A stretch of DNA of 33,070 bases from Bifidobacterium breve (GTDB lineage Bacteria > Actinomycetota > Thermoleophilia > Solirubrobacterales > Solirubrobacteraceae): contig CAMDLG010000006.1 of NCBI GenBank assembly GCA_945901565.1, positions 1 through 33,070 on the forward strand, written 5' to 3'. This document shows positions 23,711-30,159 of this stretch, piece after piece. Position 1 is the stretch's first letter. Each line of letters starts with the position of its first letter. The position numbers and the translations under genes were made by a program. Under the pieces are notes generated by a model. That model was not told the DNA's origin, made no database searches, and worked only from the letters and a program-made list of their open reading frames with translations.

Positions 23711-24928
23711 ATGAAAACTTCATTCGCTCTGACGATGTCAATTGCCGCCTCGGCTCTACTTGTCGCCTGTGGGGGCTCAAGCAGCTCCGACACCGCGTCG
23801 ACGACGACAGCGAGTAATACGGTTCGGATCGGGATGGAGGGTCCTCTCTCGGGGGATCAGAAGGTGACTGGCGTAGGGATGCTCAACGGCGCGAAGCTCG
23901 CCGCCGATAAGCTCAACGCCAAGGGTGGTCTGCTCGGCAAGCAGATCGAGATCGTCTCGATCGACGATGCTGCCGATCCAACGACCGGCGTAACGGCAGC
24001 AAACGCCGCTATCAAGACAGGCCTTGACGGCGTCGTCGGCCCGTACAACTCGGGCGCTGGAATCAAGACGCTGCCGCTCTACGAAGCCGCCGGGCTAACG
24101 CCGGTCCGTCTCACCTCCGACAGCGCCACGAATGGCATGGGGTACACGCTTCAGCCGATGGATTACCAGATCGCTCCAGTCGCCACGACGGCGCTGACCG
24201 ACTGGCTCGGCGCGAAGTCGGTGGCGATTGCTTACGACCCAACGCCGGGATACACCGCAACGGTCGGCGCCCAGATGAAGAAGCTGCTTGAAGAAGCAGG
24301 CGTCACAGTTACGGCTTACGAGGCTGTGAAGCCCGGTGCGTCGAGTTACGCGAGCACCGTTTCAAAGCTCGAGGCAACCAACCCTGACGCGATCTACTCT
24401 GTTGTCTACTTCCCTGAAGGCGGGCTGATTGCAAAAGCAATGGACGCCAGTTCCTCGAAGGTCAAGTGCATGGCCGATTACGCCTCAGATGACCCCGGCT
24501 TCGTTACGACCGCCGGCAAGGCCGCGGCCCAGAACTGCCCTGTTGTTGGCGTCCCGTCGCCGGGAGATTTCCCTAACGGCGGCTCGTTCGATGCGGCCTA
24601 TCAGAAAGAATTCGGCGAGGGCCCTGGCACCTGGAGCTCTTATGTTTACGACTCGGTCAACCTCCTCGCCACGTGCGTGAAGGAAGCGGGCGGCTTCGAC
24701 AACACACCAAACGCCGACGGCTCAACGACGGCTCAGGTCGACGGCTCGACAGCTCTGACGAAGTGCCTCAACGCCACGAAGGATTGGAAGGGCGTAACCG
24801 GCTCCGTCACGATTGATGCGGCCAACGGCAACCGTGATCCTGCGACCGTCGTCGTACTCGCAACGGACAACAACGGTGCCTTGCACGTCGATAGCTCTTG
24901 GGCCAACGCTGTAAACGCTCCGTACTAA
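23711..24928 (+). CDS. Branched-chain amino-acid-type ABC substrate-binding lipoprotein
   Basis: 405 residues. A lipoprotein signal peptide ends in LLVAC with the lipidated Cys20, followed by a Ser/Thr-rich linker. The mature part (from about 38) begins VRIGMEGPLSGDQ and continues with GAKLAADKLNAKGGLLG, typical of LivJ-like periplasmic-fold proteins (Peripla_BP_6). It would capture amino acids or related small ligands outside the membrane. No permease or ATPase genes lie beside it, so it is an orphan binding protein. ATG 23711 is the start. The stop overlaps the convergent zip gene by 4 bp. Base composition matches its neighbours. Confidence 0.9.
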   Translation: MKTSFALTMSIAASALLVACGGSSSSDTASTTTASNTVRIGMEGPLSGDQKVTGVGMLNGAKLAADKLNAKGGLLGKQIEIVSIDDAADPTTGVTAANAAIKTGLDGVVGPYNSGAGIKTLPLYEAAGLTPVRLTSDSATNGMGYTLQPMDYQIAPVATTALTDWLGAKSVAIAYDPTPGYTATVGAQMKKLLEEAGVTVTAYEAVKPGASSYASTVSKLEATNPDAIYSVVYFPEGGLIAKAMDASSSKVKCMADYASDDPGFVTTAGKAAAQNCPVVGVPSPGDFPNGGSFDAAYQKEFGEGPGTWSSYVYDSVNLLATCVKEAGGFDNTPNADGSTTAQVDGSTALTKCLNATKDWKGVTGSVTIDAANGNRDPATVVVLATDNNGALHVDSSWANAVNAPY

Positions 24929-25665
24929 GCGCCTAGCAGCAGCGCAAGCGCAGCCATCACCAACATTGAGCCGGCTATGCCGACGATTGCCAGGGGCCGG
25001 CCGTCGCGTGGGCCGAGAGCATCGGGGAGTAGCTCCAGGACGACCAACGCGAGCATTGCGCCGGCTGCAAAACCGAGCGACCACGGTAGGAGCACTGTGA
25101 TCTGCTCGACCAGTAGGAAGGCGATGACGGCGCCGATTGGCTGAGGAATACTCGTACCCACAGCCGCCCAGAATTGCTGTGAGCCACTGAAGCCCGCCTG
25201 CGCCATAGGGATCGCTGTCGCTGTTCCTTCAGGCACATTCTGCAACGCGATTGCAATGAATACGAATACCCCGAGGGCGTTGTCTGCCGACCAAGACGAG
25301 CCGAGCGCGAACCCTTCGGGAAGGCTGTGGACAAAGAGCACGGCGAATACGAGCGCCGAGCGCCTCACGTGAACGCCGCTTAGCTGACCGACCTGCATCT
25401 CACGACCAGCCATCGCCCTCTGGCCGATTAGAAGAAAGGCCACGCCGATTACTCCGCCGACGATCAGCGGGAGCCACTGCGCATTACTGATCGGCTCGAT
25501 AATGAGCCCGATTGATGCGGCTGTCATCACGCCGGCCGCGATTCCCCAGAGAAGCGGGCGCCATCGCTCGGTCCGCGTAGGGCCGAGCCAGGCGACTGGA
25601 AGCACGCCTAGGCCGGTGGCAAGCGCGGTCACGCAGGCCAGTAAGAAAACGGTAAATAACGCCAC
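24925..25665 (-). CDS. ZIP-family metal transporter
   Basis: 246 residues, about eight membrane segments. ZIP proteins import zinc, iron or manganese. The metal-site motifs are HSLPEG (His113, Glu117) and QNVPEG (Gln142, Asn143, Glu146), as in ZupT/GufA-type proteins. The start is GTG 25665, with TAACCT ending 6 nt upstream, so the transcript is probably leaderless. It was originally divergent from efp: a truncated second copy of its first roughly 30 codons lies at 29423-29521 next to the intact efp. No zinc-uptake-regulator box was recognised. Confidence 0.9.
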   Translation of the reverse strand: MALFTVFLLACVTALATGLGVLPVAWLGPTRTERWRPLLWGIAAGVMTAASIGLIIEPISNAQWLPLIVGGVIGVAFLLIGQRAMAGREMQVGQLSGVHVRRSALVFAVLFVHSLPEGFALGSSWSADNALGVFVFIAIALQNVPEGTATAIPMAQAGFSGSQQFWAAVGTSIPQPIGAVIAFLLVEQITVLLPWSLGFAAGAMLALVVLELLPDALGPRDGRPLAIVGIAGSMLVMAALALLLGA

Positions 25666-25671
25666 CGTCGC

Positions 25672-25677
25672 AGGTTA
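25672..25677 (-). promoter_or_regulatory. -10 element TAACCT of zip
   Basis: TAACCT on the minus strand ends 6 nt before the GTG start. The counterpart in the right repeat is TAGCCT with 7 nt spacing. Confidence 0.45.
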
Positions 25678-25727
25678 CGACAGCCGACGGCGCTGCAGTC
25701 TGCCCACCTCACACTCTCTCACCGCGC

Positions 25728-25733
25728 TAACCT
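25728..25733 (+). promoter_or_regulatory. -10 element TAACCT of the truncated efp copy
   Basis: Identical in sequence and spacing (10 nt to ATG) to the promoter of the intact efp. It sits in the same inverted repeat, CCGCG-N7-CGCGG. It may now drive the start of the inserted segment. Confidence 0.45.
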
Positions 25734-25743
25734 CGCGGCTCCG

Positions 25744-25911
25744 ATGATCTCAACCAATCAGCTCAGTCAGGTCCTGTCAAGCACACCGCGGCGCTGGCAG
25801 ACCGTGAGATCGGGACGGCAGGCCGGCCGCGCTGGCCCGACGCTCGTGTCGAGCACGTCGCTTATGGTCATGCGATGCGCCTTTCGAGGGTTTTCTGTCT
25901 GTCGCTTCTAG
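25744..25911 (+). pseudogene. Truncated efp copy (first 7 codons only)
   Basis: The frame starts MISTNQL exactly as the intact efp at 29599, then diverges completely (SQVLSSTPRR...) and ends at TAG 25909. The gene was cut at about codon 8, marking the left boundary of the inserted or duplicated segment. No EF-P domain remains. Confidence 0.7.
25863..25868 (+). promoter_or_regulatory. -10 element TATGGT of the pentapeptide gene
   Basis: TATGGT ends 6 nt before ATG 25875; no Shine-Dalgarno. Leaderless arrangement. Confidence 0.4.
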
Positions 25912-26096
25912 CGGTTGCGCTGCTCGCTGGCTCAGCGCAGGCCCGCATCGCCAAGGGCTGCGTAATCAAAGCTAAGACGAACTGCGTCGGCGAGAACCTC
26001 AGCGGGCAGAACCTGCGCGGAGCGAAGCTCCAGGGAGCAAAGCTTCACTACTACACCGCACCAAAGAAGAAGGGCGTTGACCCATGGATTTCCTGA
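25875..26096 (+). CDS. Short secreted pentapeptide-repeat protein, probably 3'-truncated
   Basis: 73 residues. A clear Sec signal peptide (MRLSRVFCLSLLAVALLAGSAQA) is followed by two Cys and about three pentapeptide units (ENLSG, QNLRG, AKLQG, AKL). Full pentapeptide-repeat proteins form right-handed beta helices of many more units, so this one ends abruptly. Its final residues (YYTAPKKKGVDPWIS) run into the start of the acyltransferase gene (overlap 26084-26096), where base composition changes. The simplest reading is a gene whose 3' part was lost when the GC-rich module joined. It could still yield a small secreted peptide. Confidence 0.55.
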   Translation: MRLSRVFCLSLLAVALLAGSAQARIAKGCVIKAKTNCVGENLSGQNLRGAKLQGAKLHYYTAPKKKGVDPWIS

Positions 26097-27874
26097 CCGC
26101 CGCCGACGCCGAGCAGCTTGGAGGGGAGTGCTACCGCCTGATCATCGCCCTCGTGCGTCTGAACAAGCGCCCCGATGGCACCGTCCCCTCCTGCGAGGAG
26201 GTTCGCGGGCTGATCGAGGAGCGCGTGCAGCGCTCGCCGCGCTTTCGCCAGTTCCCCTACCAGCCCCCCGGCTACAGCGGCCTGCCGGCCTGGGCCGACT
26301 GCCAGGACTTCGACATCGACGACCACCTGGTCAGGGCCGACACCGACGGCCCGGCCGACCGCCACCAGGTCGAAGAGCTGCTGGCCGAGTGGATGACCAC
26401 CCCGATCGACGAGACGAAGCCGCTGTGGCGCATCCAGTACGTGGAGACCGAGGACGGCGCCGCGCTCCTGTGGAAGTCCGGCCACGCGATCGCCGACGGC
26501 GTGGGCACCCTTGCCCTGCTCGCGATGCTCCTCTTTGACGTAACCGGGGAGCCGGTTCGCGAGGAGGCCGCCCGCTGGGAGCCGGCCCCGCTGCCGACCG
26601 CCGCCGAACTCAAGGAGGCCGCCCGCGCCGCGGGAGCCGAGGAGGAGGTCGTCGTCGAGACCCCGCTGCAGAAGGCGATGGCCGTCTTCTCCAGCCCTGC
26701 CTCGATCAAGGAGGCCGCGGCCGGCACGGCGCAGATGAGCCGTTACCTGCTGCGCAAGGCCCGTACCGACTTCGCACCCAGCCCGCTCTGGGCCGGTAAC
26801 GGGCCGCCGGTCGACCTGCGCACCCTCGAGTACCCGCTGGAGCGCCTCAAGCTCCTGGGCCGCGGGCTAGGCACCGGCGCGACGATGAACGACGTGATCC
26901 TCGGCATGACCGGCGGCGGCCTGCGCCGGTGGTGCCTGGAGAACGGCCACCCGCTCGACGAGCTGGCGGTCCGCGTGCCGGCCGCCACCGGCCGGGGCAG
27001 CAGTACCGGGACGATCGCGCCGATGATCGTTCCCGTGCCGCTTGCGGAGGAGGACCCGGTTCGCCGCGTGAGGATGATCCGCGAGCGCACCGAGGCGGTC
27101 AAGTCCTCCGGTGAGCTGGAGGTGGCGGTGCAGGCGATGGCCCTGGCCCGCGAGGTCCCCGGCCCGGTGGGCGAGCGCCTCAACAACCTGATCTTTGGCA
27201 AGGGGCAGGCCAACGTGGAGATCCACAACGTGCCCGGCCCGTCGCTCGAGCTCTACGTGCTCGGCGCGCCGATCGCCTCCTTACACAGCTTCAGCCTCCC
27301 GCGTCCGCAGGTGGCGATTCAGGTGAACCTCGTCTCGATCGGTGGCCTGGTCACGATCGGGCTGGCCGCCGACACCGCGGTGGTCGGCAGCCTCGACCCG
27401 TTCGTGCGCGGGATGGCCGAGACCGAAGAGGCCCTGGCCCGCGGCGTGGCCAACCTTGACCTCGTTCGCCGCGTGCCGATCTTCGCCCCGCTCGAGGACG
27501 AGCTGCAGGAGGACCTCGCCGCCCGCATGGCCTCACGCGAGGTCGAGGCCGGCGAGGTGCTGGTCAAGCAGGGCGACGCGGCCGACGACTTCTTCCTCAT
27601 CGTCCAGGGCAGCTTCGACACCGAGGTCGACGGCGAGTCGGTCCGCCAGATGGGCCCGGGCGACTCGTTCGGGGAGATTGGCCTCCTGCGCGACACCGAG
27701 CGCACCGCCACGGTCACCGCCGAAGCCGACGGCGTGGTGATGGCCCTCAGCCGCGAGGACTTCCTCAATGCGGTCGCCGCCGACCCGGCGAGCATGGTCG
27801 TGGCCGATGCGATCATCAACACCCGCCTGGGTGACCTGGGCCGCTACCGGGCCTTCAGCGAACCGCCGGGTTGA
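26084..27874 (+). CDS. Wax ester synthase/DGAT-type acyltransferase fused to a cyclic-nucleotide-binding domain
   Basis: 596 residues. Residues 1-455 are a WS/DGAT domain, which esterifies fatty alcohols or diacylglycerol with acyl-CoA to make neutral lipid. The active-site motif is GHAIADG (133-139): the second His and the DG of HHxxxDG are kept and the first His is Gly. PLWR, the NVPGP segment and the C-terminal NLVSIGG stretch are family marks. Residues about 462-596 form a cNMP-binding domain: RRVPIFAPLEDE, EVLVKQGD, and the phosphate-binding cassette FGEIGLLRDTERTATV with the key Glu531 and Arg540. No membrane helix. It overlaps the convergent exporter by 20 bp. Composition is foreign-looking. 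Both domains are clear; allosteric control by cAMP/cGMP is inference. Confidence 0.88.
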   Translation: MDFLTAADAEQLGGECYRLIIALVRLNKRPDGTVPSCEEVRGLIEERVQRSPRFRQFPYQPPGYSGLPAWADCQDFDIDDHLVRADTDGPADRHQVEELLAEWMTTPIDETKPLWRIQYVETEDGAALLWKSGHAIADGVGTLALLAMLLFDVTGEPVREEAARWEPAPLPTAAELKEAARAAGAEEEVVVETPLQKAMAVFSSPASIKEAAAGTAQMSRYLLRKARTDFAPSPLWAGNGPPVDLRTLEYPLERLKLLGRGLGTGATMNDVILGMTGGGLRRWCLENGHPLDELAVRVPAATGRGSSTGTIAPMIVPVPLAEEDPVRRVRMIRERTEAVKSSGELEVAVQAMALAREVPGPVGERLNNLIFGKGQANVEIHNVPGPSLELYVLGAPIASLHSFSLPRPQVAIQVNLVSIGGLVTIGLAADTAVVGSLDPFVRGMAETEEALARGVANLDLVRRVPIFAPLEDELQEDLAARMASREVEAGEVLVKQGDAADDFFLIVQGSFDTEVDGESVRQMGPGDSFGEIGLLRDTERTATVTAEADGVVMALSREDFLNAVAADPASMVVADAIINTRLGDLGRYRAFSEPPG

Positions 27875-29276
27875 CCGGCTGGACGGCCTCTTCGGCCTGC
27901 TCCAGGGCGATGGCGTCCCCGGTGCCGGCGCCCGGGTTCCTGAACATCCTCAGCAGCCAGGCGGCCAGCAGGGCCAGGACGACGATCCCCGCCCCGATCA
28001 GCGAGACCTGCGCAATGCTGTCGGAGAAGACCCGAAGGCCGGTGTCCAGGTCGCCGGCGGGCAGCGTCGAGCTCTCAGCCGGGTGCTGGATCTGCGAGTC
28101 GATCTTTTGCCCCTCGCTGGAGCCGACGCCGGCGGTCAGCGCGCTACGGACCAGTGCGTTCGTGACCGCGCCGAGAAAAAGCGATCCGGCGGCAAGGCCG
28201 GACTGGACCGCGACGGTCATCGTGCCGGAGATCATCCCGCGCTCTACCGGGTCGGCGTCGGTTATGGCCAGCACGTTCACCGGCGTGGAGGCGAGGTTCA
28301 TGCCGACTCCCAGCAGGAACATCGGGATCACGATCTGCGCGTAGGACTCCAGCGTGAAGGCGTAGGCGATGACCGCCAGGCAGGCGGCAACCGTCACGTA
28401 ACCGGCGATCGTCGGCGAACGCCAGCCGACCCTGTCCTTCAGGCGGCCGGAGACCACGCCGCCGATGCCCATTCCCAGGACGCCGGGGAGTAACGCCAGG
28501 CCAGCCCGCAGGGCGTCGTAGCCCAGGACGGTCTGGAGGTAGGTACCGGTGTAGATGAAGATCCAGATCAGGGGGACGTGGATCCAGAAGACTAGGAAGA
28601 GCCCGCTGCGCAGGGAGGGACGCCTGAGCATCTCCCAGCTGATGAACCGCTCCCGGTTGCGGTCGGGTCCCTCGCCGGCGCCGCGCAGGTAGACGTGGCC
28701 GAGAAGGAGGAGCGGTCCGACGATGATCGGGTTGATCAGGAAGATCCAGTTCCAGCTGACTGCGTCGACGATCACGCCGCCGACCAGCGGGCCGATTGCC
28801 ATCCCGACTGCGCCGACGGCGATGTAGACGCCGAAGGCGACGCCGGTCTTGTCCGGGGGCGCCACGCGGGTAACTAGCGCCTGCAGGCAGGGCAAGAGGA
28901 CGGCGGCGCCCAGGCCCTGCACCACGCGGCCACCGATGATCAGCTCGAAGCCACCGGCAAGGCCGCACATCAATGAACCGATCGCGAAGACGACCATGCC
29001 GATGTTCATTCCCCTGATCTGGCCCACCCGGTCCCCGAACATGCCGCCCGGGATCAGCATCAGCGCGAAGACGATCAGGTAGGCGTTGACCACCCACTGG
29101 GCCTGCGACGGCGCCAGGCCCAGGTCGTCCTCGATGGTCGGCAGGGCGACCGAGATGATCGTCAGGTCGATCGAGGTGACCAGGCTCGCGGTGCCCAGCA
29201 CGAGGATCGCAACCTTCCACCCGCGCGAGGGGATACCGGCGCCCCCGCCGCCAGCGGCGGAATCTGTCCCACCCAT
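27855..29276 (-). CDS. MFS exporter, DHA2 (14-TM, EmrB/QacA-like) family
   Basis: 473 residues with about 14 hydrophobic segments. Motifs: the DLTIISVALPTIEDDLG segment at the end of TM1, GDRVGQIRG (motif A, loop 2-3) and GPLVGGVIVDAVSWNWIF (motif C, antiporter signature in TM5 and following). Such proteins expel drugs, lipids or amphiphiles using the proton gradient. ATG 29276 (MGGTDS) is chosen over TTG 29282; TAGTCT ends 8 nt before it. It shares the GC-rich composition of the acyltransferase and meets it tail-to-tail with a 20-bp overlap, so the pair probably arrived together. Whether it exports an acyltransferase product is speculation. Confidence 0.9.
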   Translation of the reverse strand: MGGTDSAAGGGGAGIPSRGWKVAILVLGTASLVTSIDLTIISVALPTIEDDLGLAPSQAQWVVNAYLIVFALMLIPGGMFGDRVGQIRGMNIGMVVFAIGSLMCGLAGGFELIIGGRVVQGLGAAVLLPCLQALVTRVAPPDKTGVAFGVYIAVGAVGMAIGPLVGGVIVDAVSWNWIFLINPIIVGPLLLLGHVYLRGAGEGPDRNRERFISWEMLRRPSLRSGLFLVFWIHVPLIWIFIYTGTYLQTVLGYDALRAGLALLPGVLGMGIGGVVSGRLKDRVGWRSPTIAGYVTVAACLAVIAYAFTLESYAQIVIPMFLLGVGMNLASTPVNVLAITDADPVERGMISGTMTVAVQSGLAAGSLFLGAVTNALVRSALTAGVGSSEGQKIDSQIQHPAESSTLPAGDLDTGLRVFSDSIAQVSLIGAGIVVLALLAAWLLRMFRNPGAGTGDAIALEQAEEAVQPVNPAVR

Positions 29277-29284
29277 GGGCAAAG

Positions 29285-29290
29285 AGACTA
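29285..29290 (-). promoter_or_regulatory. -10 element TAGTCT of the MFS gene
   Basis: TAGTCT read on the minus strand, 8 nt before ATG 29276. The 322-bp stretch 29277-29598 has no intact gene: it holds this promoter, a palindrome, the zip remnant and the efp promoter. Confidence 0.4.
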
Positions 29291-29303
29291 CCCCGAGGAC
29301 GGT

Positions 29304-29320
29304 GGTCGTGGCCGACGACC
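29304..29320. promoter_or_regulatory. Palindrome over the MFS -35 region
   Basis: GGTCGT and ACGACC form a perfect 6-bp inverted repeat with a 5-nt spacer, 14-30 bp upstream of the MFS -10 hexamer. The position suits an operator for a TetR- or MarR-type repressor. No regulator gene lies in the window. Confidence 0.35.
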
Positions 29321-29422
29321 GTTCCCGTCGCTGTATACGCGTACGGCGATGGTCGACGAGCGCGTTAACGACCTGAGCAGCCCTGGTGCTCGGTAGATCC
29401 GGTGGAAGATGCCGGTACAGCT

Positions 29423-29521
29423 CTCCGTTCCGTCCGTCCCCAACCAGGCGACCGGCAGCGCCCCCAGTCCGGTCGCGAGCGCAGTCGCGCAGGCGAGTAG
29501 AAAAACAGTCGGCAAGACCAC
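29423..29521 (-). pseudogene. Truncated zip copy (first ~30 codons)
   Basis: From GTG 29521 the frame reads MVLPTVFLLACATALATGLG and continues with ALPVAWLG, matching the intact ZIP transporter start at 25665 in 24 of 28 residues. It then runs into unrelated sequence (CTGIFHRIYR) and ends by about 29288. Only the first membrane helix remains. It marks the right boundary of the inserted segment. Confidence 0.75.
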
Positions 29522-29576
29522 GTGGCGCAGGCTACGACAGTCCGCGGCGCGAGCCTCGAGGCGGCCCCCGGCCTTG

Positions 29577-29593
29577 CCGCGCTAACCTCGCGG
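29577..29593 (+). promoter_or_regulatory. efp promoter within an inverted repeat
   Basis: The -10 hexamer TAACCT (29583-29588) ends 10 nt before ATG 29599 and is embedded in CCGCG-N7-CGCGG (29577-29581 and 29589-29593). The arrangement is conserved in the left repeat. The inverted repeat could be an operator or, in the transcript, a hairpin cut by the start site. Confidence 0.45.
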
Positions 29594-29598
29594 CTCCA

Positions 29599-30159
29599 AT
29601 GATTTCAACCAATCAGCTTAAGAACGGCAATCACATCGAGGTCGATGGAACGGTCTTCAAGGTCGTTGACTTTCAGCACGTCAAGCCAGGCAAGGGGCCA
29701 GCGTTCGTGCGCACGAAGCTGCGCCGTACTTCCGATGGCAACGTGATCGACAAAACTTTCCGCGCCGGCGAAAAGTTCCGATCGGTTCGCTCTGAAGCCC
29801 GACGGATGAGTTTCCTCTACTCCGACGGGAGCGAAGCGCACTTCATGGATTCTGAGTCGTTCGAGCAGATAGCGCTGCCGCTCTCGCTCGTTGAGGAAGA
29901 GCTGCGTTGGACTAAGCCGAATGACGATGTCGACATGCTGTTCATCGACTCGGAGCCGAGCACGCTCCAGCTCCCCGCCTCGGTCGAGCTAGAGGTGACC
30001 GAAACGGAGCCTGGACTACGCGGCGACACAGCTTCTGGCGGCGGCAACAAGCCAGCGACGCTTGAGACTGGTGCCGTGATTCAGGTGCCACTTTTCGTCA
30101 ATATCGGCGACAAGATCAAGGTTCAGACCGATACCGGCGACTACATGTCGCGCGCGTAG
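29599..30159 (+). CDS. efp: Translation elongation factor P
   Basis: 186 residues. EF-P rescues ribosomes stalled at polyproline. The N-terminal KOW domain holds the loop VKPGKGPAF with the tip lysine (modified in some species); no epmA/epmB-like modifier is visible here. The middle and C-terminal OB folds follow, ending VPLFVNIGDKIKVQTDTGDY, the EF-P signature. ATG 29599 (MISTNQLKNG) is confirmed by the family start; a frame reaching up to 29386 is spurious. It leads efp-nusB-xseB-like-ispA, with nusB starting 15 nt downstream. Confidence 0.97.
   Translation: MISTNQLKNGNHIEVDGTVFKVVDFQHVKPGKGPAFVRTKLRRTSDGNVIDKTFRAGEKFRSVRSEARRMSFLYSDGSEAHFMDSESFEQIALPLSLVEEELRWTKPNDDVDMLFIDSEPSTLQLPASVELEVTETEPGLRGDTASGGGNKPATLETGAVIQVPLFVNIGDKIKVQTDTGDYMSRA

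Follow-up and report, generated by a model that had tools for sequence, protein, structure and literature searches.

The 5′ end of efp, the gene for elongation factor P (EF-P), is probably a site-specific integration site, and the DNA lodged there in contig CAMDLG010000006.1 would be, or would have begun as, a small integrative element without an integrase gene; we put the probability of this reading at about 0.55. The window analysed here is that entire contig of 33,070 bp, from a draft assembly (1.56 Mb, 154 contigs) that is probably metagenome-assembled. In the window, the junction between efp and the transporter gene zip is doubled, and its copies enclose a cargo of approximately 3.65 kb (25764 to about 29425) comprising a pentapeptide-gene fragment, a gene for a wax ester synthase/diacylglycerol acyltransferase (WS/DGAT) with a cNMP-binding domain, and an MFS gene. 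A fixed break at the 5′ end of efp, element-specific sequence beyond it, and kin at tRNA 3′ ends with direct repeats together argue for site-specific integration followed by tandem accretion.

The doubled zip/efp junction

A search of the whole assembly yielded two direct copies of the junction, approximately 180 bp each (25588–25763 and 29444–29618), which are 73% identical (E value of 6.5e-23); the left junction, searched against the same assembly, gave no third copy. The left copy comprises intact zip and efp codons 1–7, and the right copy approximately 28 zip codons and intact efp. This is the arrangement that the first-pass annotation of this DNA had described for a block of roughly 200 bp, and a base-by-base alignment bore out its remark that the zip half diverges more: left and right agree in 60 of 83 columns of the zip start, 39 of 48 intergenic columns and 40 of 42 columns of the block holding the promoter and efp start. 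This 42-bp block is more similar than the other segments (Fisher p of 0.004). The features of the junctions and the cargo are as follows.

24925–25665, minus strand: intact zip, ZIP-family transporter, host copy (Pfam Zip, 1e-18)
25588–25763, no strand: left junction copy (repeat alignment)
25722–25763, no strand: 42-bp block, left copy, with promoter region and efp codons 1–7; candidate crossover or attachment core (40/42 against the right copy)
25744–25764, plus strand: truncated efp, codons 1–7 (MISTNQL); same break in loci L052 (genome G020) and L164 (G029)
25769–25785, plus strand: AGGTCCTGTCAAGCACA, candidate element-end sequence common to G020 (0 of 2000 shuffles as good)
25806–25874, plus strand: leader common to pentapeptide-repeat elements at tRNA genes (similarity to relatives' leaders)
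25875–26096, plus strand: secreted pentapeptide-repeat gene, 5′ fragment, 73 amino acids (Pfam Pentapeptide, 2.4e-4)
26084–27874, plus strand: WS/DGAT with cNMP-binding domain (Pfam; GC content at third codon positions (GC3) of 0.93)
27855–29282, minus strand: MFS transporter, convergent with WS/DGAT (Pfam; GC3 of 0.905)
29438–29521, minus strand: truncated zip, approximately 28 codons (alignment with relatives' zip)
29444–29618, no strand: right junction copy (repeat alignment)
29577–29618, no strand: 42-bp block, right copy (alignment)
29599–30159, plus strand: intact efp, elongation factor P (Pfam EFP domains; 98% identical to EF-P of G005)

No recombinase family was matched by Pfam in the three cargo open reading frames (ORFs) scanned, in line with the annotated absence of such a gene from a segment of this size, and no other sizeable cargo ORF was taken as a gene. 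Elsewhere on the contig (12888–15517 and 19287–20222) lie genes read from their translations as comM-like and dprA-like, together with one for a xerD-like tyrosine recombinase (PF00589).

The efp stretches of 14 genomes of the same genus were compared, with zip sought by tblastn. Five of them (G005, G007, G008, G013 and G014) carry zip and efp divergent, 76 bp apart and free of cargo, which is the ancestral form, with a gap of about 80 bp, that had been predicted. The intact zip of the window is 86.5–88.2% identical to the efp-adjoining zip of these five genomes. Over the homologous 180 nt, the left copy is 74–80% and the right copy 72–76% identical to the five intact junctions, and the two copies are 74% identical to each other. 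In G012, the zip–efp gap measures approximately 1.1 kb and holds a 256-residue ORF; in G011, the gene directly upstream of efp resembles, as read from translations, the cargo gene that precedes efp in G020, and a zip start lies at the end of a separate contig. No zip was detected by tblastn at the efp locus of the remaining seven (G001, G002, G003, G004, G006, G009 and G016; the contig cuts efp in G001 and G006), and two further genomes of the genus (G010 and G015) gave no EF-P match. The zip/efp position is therefore variable: empty in 5 of the 14, occupied by differing cargo in the window, G012 and G020, and by a cargo-type gene in G011.

A recurrent break at codon 7

The efp start pattern, with at most one mismatch, matched 47 of 201 genomes, and only the window genome twice. 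Context was read at 29 of the 48 match places: those in G193 and G199 are unrelated, and the others are intact EF-P (L136 and L138 judged on sight), apart from the left copy of the window and one place each in G020 and G029. In these two genomes, the start departs from EF-P after MISTNQL, 1.3 and 1.8 kb upstream of the real efp, respectively. A scan for second starts on the same strand, in three frames and up to 6.5 kb upstream of efp was tried at 61 loci, four of which were unusable. Of the 57 usable loci (307 kb), three contain a further efp start that ends after MISTNQL, namely those of the window, G020 and G029; eight of the 57 have less than 3 kb upstream, and the set is not unbiased, because L164 and L255–L261 were picked on the strength of the pattern scan of 201 genomes. 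The corrected exact pattern gave six matches among 399 genomes of the class, comprising the same three copies and three unrelated sites.

In all three broken copies, the similarity to efp ends at codon 7 to within one or two bases, and the first base after codon 7 is A (codon 8, position 1). The real efp starts are altered upstream of the Thr-Asn-Gln codons in both G020 (GTG TAC GTA AAT ACT AAC CAG) and G029 (CTG ATA AGC ACA AAC CAG), as is expected under a model of site-specific integration. A break at one position across three genera points to a putative attachment-site scar, rather than an arbitrary limit of donor homology, in the left copy of efp.

The cargo differs in the third genus, where an RmuC-family gene (Pfam, 3.3e-75) lies between the broken and the real efp (L164:3422–4381, contig C2 of G029).

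The candidate element end beside the break

The sequence that follows the break is AGGTCCTGTCAAGCACA in the window and AGGTTCTGTCAAGCACA in G020. The 111-nt left end of the window element aligns over 85 nt with the end that precedes the second pentapeptide gene of G020, with a score of 70, the best of 2000 Markov shuffles scoring 29. The other G020 junction precedes a different gene and has only the 17-nt arm in common with the window (0 of 2000 shuffles as good), so that the arm appears to travel with different cargo. With one mismatch allowed, the 17-nt pattern occurs in 3 of 121 genomes: the window genome, G020 and G092, where its context is unrelated. Farther in, 49 nt of the window leader align with copies associated with tRNA-Met (0 of 2000 shuffles as good). 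The left end of G011 matches the window end weakly, 31 of 2000 shuffles being as good.

Related cassettes at tRNA genes

The leader and pentapeptide sequence, used as a query at an E value of 1e-3 or better, matched 22 of the 121 genomes, several of them through the efp start or short stretches only; at most six candidates were scored per genome. The leader together with the 5′ part of the pentapeptide gene matched with E values below 1e-20 in six other genomes (G008, G011, G012, G013, G020 and G101, the last from another family). Fourteen match stretches were taken, of which 11 (L089, L097 and L099 being left out) and the G020 efp locus (L052) were scanned for tRNA genes by ARAGORN. Nine of these 12 loci contain one intact tRNA gene, and L088, L098 and L052 contain none. 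The tRNA scan assigned the nine as follows.

tRNA-Thr(TGT): L086, L087, L090
tRNA-Met(CAT): L091, L094
tRNA-Thr(CGT): L093, L095, L096
tRNA-Thr(GGT): L092

Pentapeptide genes lie downstream of the tRNA gene, in the same direction, in all nine loci. Extra copies of the last 42 nt of the tRNA are present in five of them, with five copies in L086, six in L087 and one each in L090, L092 and L094. In L094 (2832–3834; contig C56 of G008), two identical 42-nt tRNA-Met 3′ ends, 929 nt apart, enclose a pentapeptide ORF, and this 929-nt unit is a candidate for the minimal element. The 3′ half of tRNA-Thr(TGT) occurs seven times in G008, five times in G013, twice in G020, once in each of ten other genomes and in none of the remaining 108 of the 121. 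The repeated tRNA 3′ ends at pentapeptide loci are likely scars of small integrative elements that lack an integrase.

Two long arrays were observed among these loci, L087:75–10771 (contig C181 of G008) and L086:2650–11681 (contig C2 of G013), in which tandem genes for secreted pentapeptide-repeat and NHL beta-propeller proteins follow one intact tRNA-Thr(TGT); genes for NHL/beta-propeller proteins are also among the array genes. The arm-like repeats GTGGCAGCAAAGTGGCAGCA and GTGGCAACAAAGTGGCAACA lie just upstream of the pentapeptide leader in L098 (contig C21 of G008) and L088 (contig C8 of G020), respectively, where ARAGORN detected no intact tRNA gene.

Origin of the cargo genes

The two large cargo genes have GC3 values of 0.93 and 0.905, as against 0.67–0.73 in nine other measured genes of the window, the pentapeptide fragment included. 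Relatives of the WS/DGAT at E values of 1e-60 or below are present in 7 of the 121 genomes, the window genome among them. The closest is that of G115, a member of family f3 (70% identity), and the second copy in the window genome itself is 62% identical. In a tree of eight WS/DGAT sequences, the window copy pairs with G115 on a long branch (support 100/98); a split with support of 100/100 separates both of them and G101, another member of family f3, from five copies of the same genus as the window. Judged from these sequence affinities, the WS/DGAT–MFS block is foreign, and in the tree its WS/DGAT falls closest to another family.

Homology to the pentapeptide family stops at 26074–26076 in most matches and at 26085 in one, and the coding start of the WS/DGAT resembles G115 from about base 26080, so the two blocks of the cargo nearly abut. 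Convergent WS/DGAT and MFS genes with intervening DNA are found in G115, G101, G010, G001 (where the MFS gene lies partly outside the stretch) and contig C5 of the window genome; the pair was not seen in the examined stretches of G002 and G004. The convergence is a recurrent neighbourhood in the order (L108, L109, L110, L112 and L114). In the window (26084–29282), the DNA between the two genes is gone and they overlap by 20 bp.

Searches for recombinases and viruses

Two tyrosine-recombinase matches were obtained in each of G008, G011, G012 and G013, with lengths that fit XerC and XerD, which they presumably are. A helper acting in trans is therefore assumed. Several candidates for a viral carrier were set aside. 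A first version of the break pattern, which excludes A at codon 8 position 1, matched six viral contigs; two of these are near-identical and match inside a coding region, and four have no EF-P or efp-like sequence upstream. Among genome contigs, this version, which by its design misses broken copies of the window type, gave 52 matches, two of them intact EF-P genes with Arg at codon 8 and the others without a match to EF-P. The 17-nt element end occurs in three viral contigs, which are unrelated by context. The arm-like repeat GTGNCARCAAAGTGNCARCA occurs in 40 viral contig stretches, 12 of them with a tyrosine-recombinase box within 2 kb, and was given no weight because its control is incomplete.

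Proposed mechanism and alternatives

Under the favoured explanation, the left copy would be attL-like, consisting of host zip, the host promoter and efp codons 1–7, followed by the element end. The right copy would be attR-like, the element having supplied a 5′ end and promoter to the rest of efp. The element would be one of a family of short cassettes, as a rule composed of a conserved leader followed by a secreted pentapeptide-repeat gene; members of this family also sit at tRNA 3′ ends in relatives and would grow by tandem accretion. In the window, the pentapeptide gene would have been cut at about base 26076 and then joined to a WS/DGAT–MFS block, the donor of which would have had a WS/DGAT closest to that of family f3. 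A tyrosine integrase supplied in trans, by a phage or mobile element, would have made the junctions, and the zip fragment on the right would derive from an earlier, related host, through aberrant excision of a circle or homologous recombination.

Several observations weigh against this explanation. An efp-specific integrase was not found in our searches, the corrected break pattern matched a single viral contig, which is unrelated and gives no phage carrying the efp site, and the exact tRNA-Thr 3′ fragment matched no viral contig. No extra copy of the tRNA 3′ end is present in the examined stretch of four of the nine tRNA loci (L091, L093, L095 and L096). The window genome has no match to tRNA-Thr(TGT), and the six candidates scored in it include no second pentapeptide leader. 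The element ends of G029 and G012 are unlike that of the window (372 and 383 of 2000 shuffles as good, respectively), the latter despite cargo between zip and efp; the G029 end may mark either an independent system or one too diverged to recognize. As to whether DNA upstream of efp travels with the element, that of G012 scores 36 against G020 and 33 against the cargo-free G005. The right copy of the window is host-like and, with approximately 28 zip codons, longer than an attachment core needs; in G020 and G029, by contrast, the broken copy and the real efp are immediately preceded by differing sequences. The extra zip codons suggest a homologous step or aberrant excision.

The same codons bear on the proposal of the first-pass annotation, integration by a single homologous crossover of a circular donor that carried 28 codons of zip, the promoter and seven codons of efp from a related species. 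The geometry, the cargo-free ancestor and the foreign cargo all accord with it, and so do a right copy that retains zip codons and is about equally distant (72–76%) from the five intact congeneric junctions, a crossover block that is the most similar stretch (40/42), the natural-uptake genes comM and dprA in the window (named from translations), and the lack of a recombinase among the scanned cargo genes. By itself, such a crossover predicts neither the break after MISTNQL in two other genera (G020 and G029) nor an element end of 17 bases and a leader shared with G020 and associated with tRNA genes; given the recurrence of the break, we reject the window as a lone accident of homologous recombination. 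We regard this proposal as rather unlikely. Its most plausible form is one in which the donor junction was already an integration scar (attL), brought in by uptake and homologous recombination. As to the donor, a related strain had been suggested; the identities of the right copy to congeneric junctions would also suit a related species, and no donor of the right zip fragment was detected among the 201 genomes, with at most three candidates scored per genome. The right repeat extends into zip, beyond what an attachment core would require, and for this reason the window copy may still have arrived by homologous recombination. We infer that the junction is of the attachment-scar type and reached this genome through either the action of an integrase or homologous recombination with a scar-bearing donor circle.

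A chimeric assembly would account for the jump in GC3 from approximately 0.7 to more than 0.9 exactly at the two large cargo genes, in a draft of 154 contigs. It is very improbable, given that both flanks form one host locus in conserved order, that an assembler would have had to leave and return at one spot, and that the comparable junctions of G020 and G029 lie within contigs 200 and 232 kb long. Tandem duplication of the junction within one genome, followed by the insertion of foreign DNA between the two copies, fits the direct repeats and the string CTCGCGGCTCC, which is present in both window copies of the 42-bp block and absent from six aligned relatives. Under this scenario, the zip halves (60/83) imply an old event, which sits badly with the near-identity of the promoter block. 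Identity between the copies (74%) does not exceed that of either one to other species, and the recurrence in other genera is left over. We consider it very improbable.

Beyond the window, site-specific integration at efp admits a wider and more tentative extension: short secreted-protein cassettes that have a common leader and no integrase of their own, seated on attachment scars, may be mobile between genera and families of the order, with a minimum of five places to land (the efp 5′ end and four kinds of tRNA 3′ end), and each arrival at efp would replace the promoter and start of EF-P.

Relation to known systems and significance

Additive flexible genomic islands, in which cassettes are added at one spot bounded by direct repeats of part of a tRNA gene, are described, in the portions of the sources consulted, for aquatic bacteria including streamlined actinobacteria (Alteromonas, PMC5217437; Ca. 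Actinomarinales, PMC7771536; Methylophilaceae, PMC10872708); in the Methylophilaceae islands, the last 20 bp of tRNA-Lys recur (PMC10872708). The loci described here are similar in having variable cassettes at an equivalent position and direct repeats of the end of the target gene (42 bp of efp; 42 nt of the tRNA 3′ end). They differ in that the window target is the 5′ end of a protein gene, efp, with tRNA targets only in relatives of the family, and in that secreted pentapeptide-repeat genes, all behind a leader of one type, are numerous in the arrays.

Elements of the IMEVchUSA3 and SXT type are larger than the window cargo. Like that cargo, they insert at the 5′ end of a gene, dusA or prfC (PMC8409611, in the part consulted). 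The recurrent position and broken start expected of such elements are matched by the break after efp codon 7 in three genera. They encode an integrase, unlike the cargo of the window, and the target here is efp. Hitcher elements and CALINs, as presented in part of PMC11389934, are also cassettes without an integrase and depend on a helper; the landing sites here, in contrast, are the 3′ ends of tRNA genes and the start of efp, and not known attC sites. Tycheposons, too, are cargo elements bordered by tRNA genes; from what is related in parts of PMC10872708 and PMC11389934, they span 4–200 kb and have a xerD recombinase in Methylophilaceae, whereas the window cargo spans approximately 3.65 kb and its scanned genes match no recombinase family.

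Matches of EF-P, at 67% identity to two Solirubrobacterales metagenome-assembled genomes, suggest a placement near that order. Our literature searches on pentapeptide repeats in Solirubrobacter and on islands in Solirubrobacterales returned no reports. Growth of cassettes at tRNA genes is known; if cassettes of this kind also use the 5′ end of a core translation gene, that landing site would be new within the literature searched. If this reading is true, gene gain would be tied to the expression of EF-P, and accretion could retune EF-P. The arrays, with a unit down to 929 bp and exact 42-nt borders, would offer a clean system in which to study the mobilization of integrase-less cassettes in small-genome bacteria.

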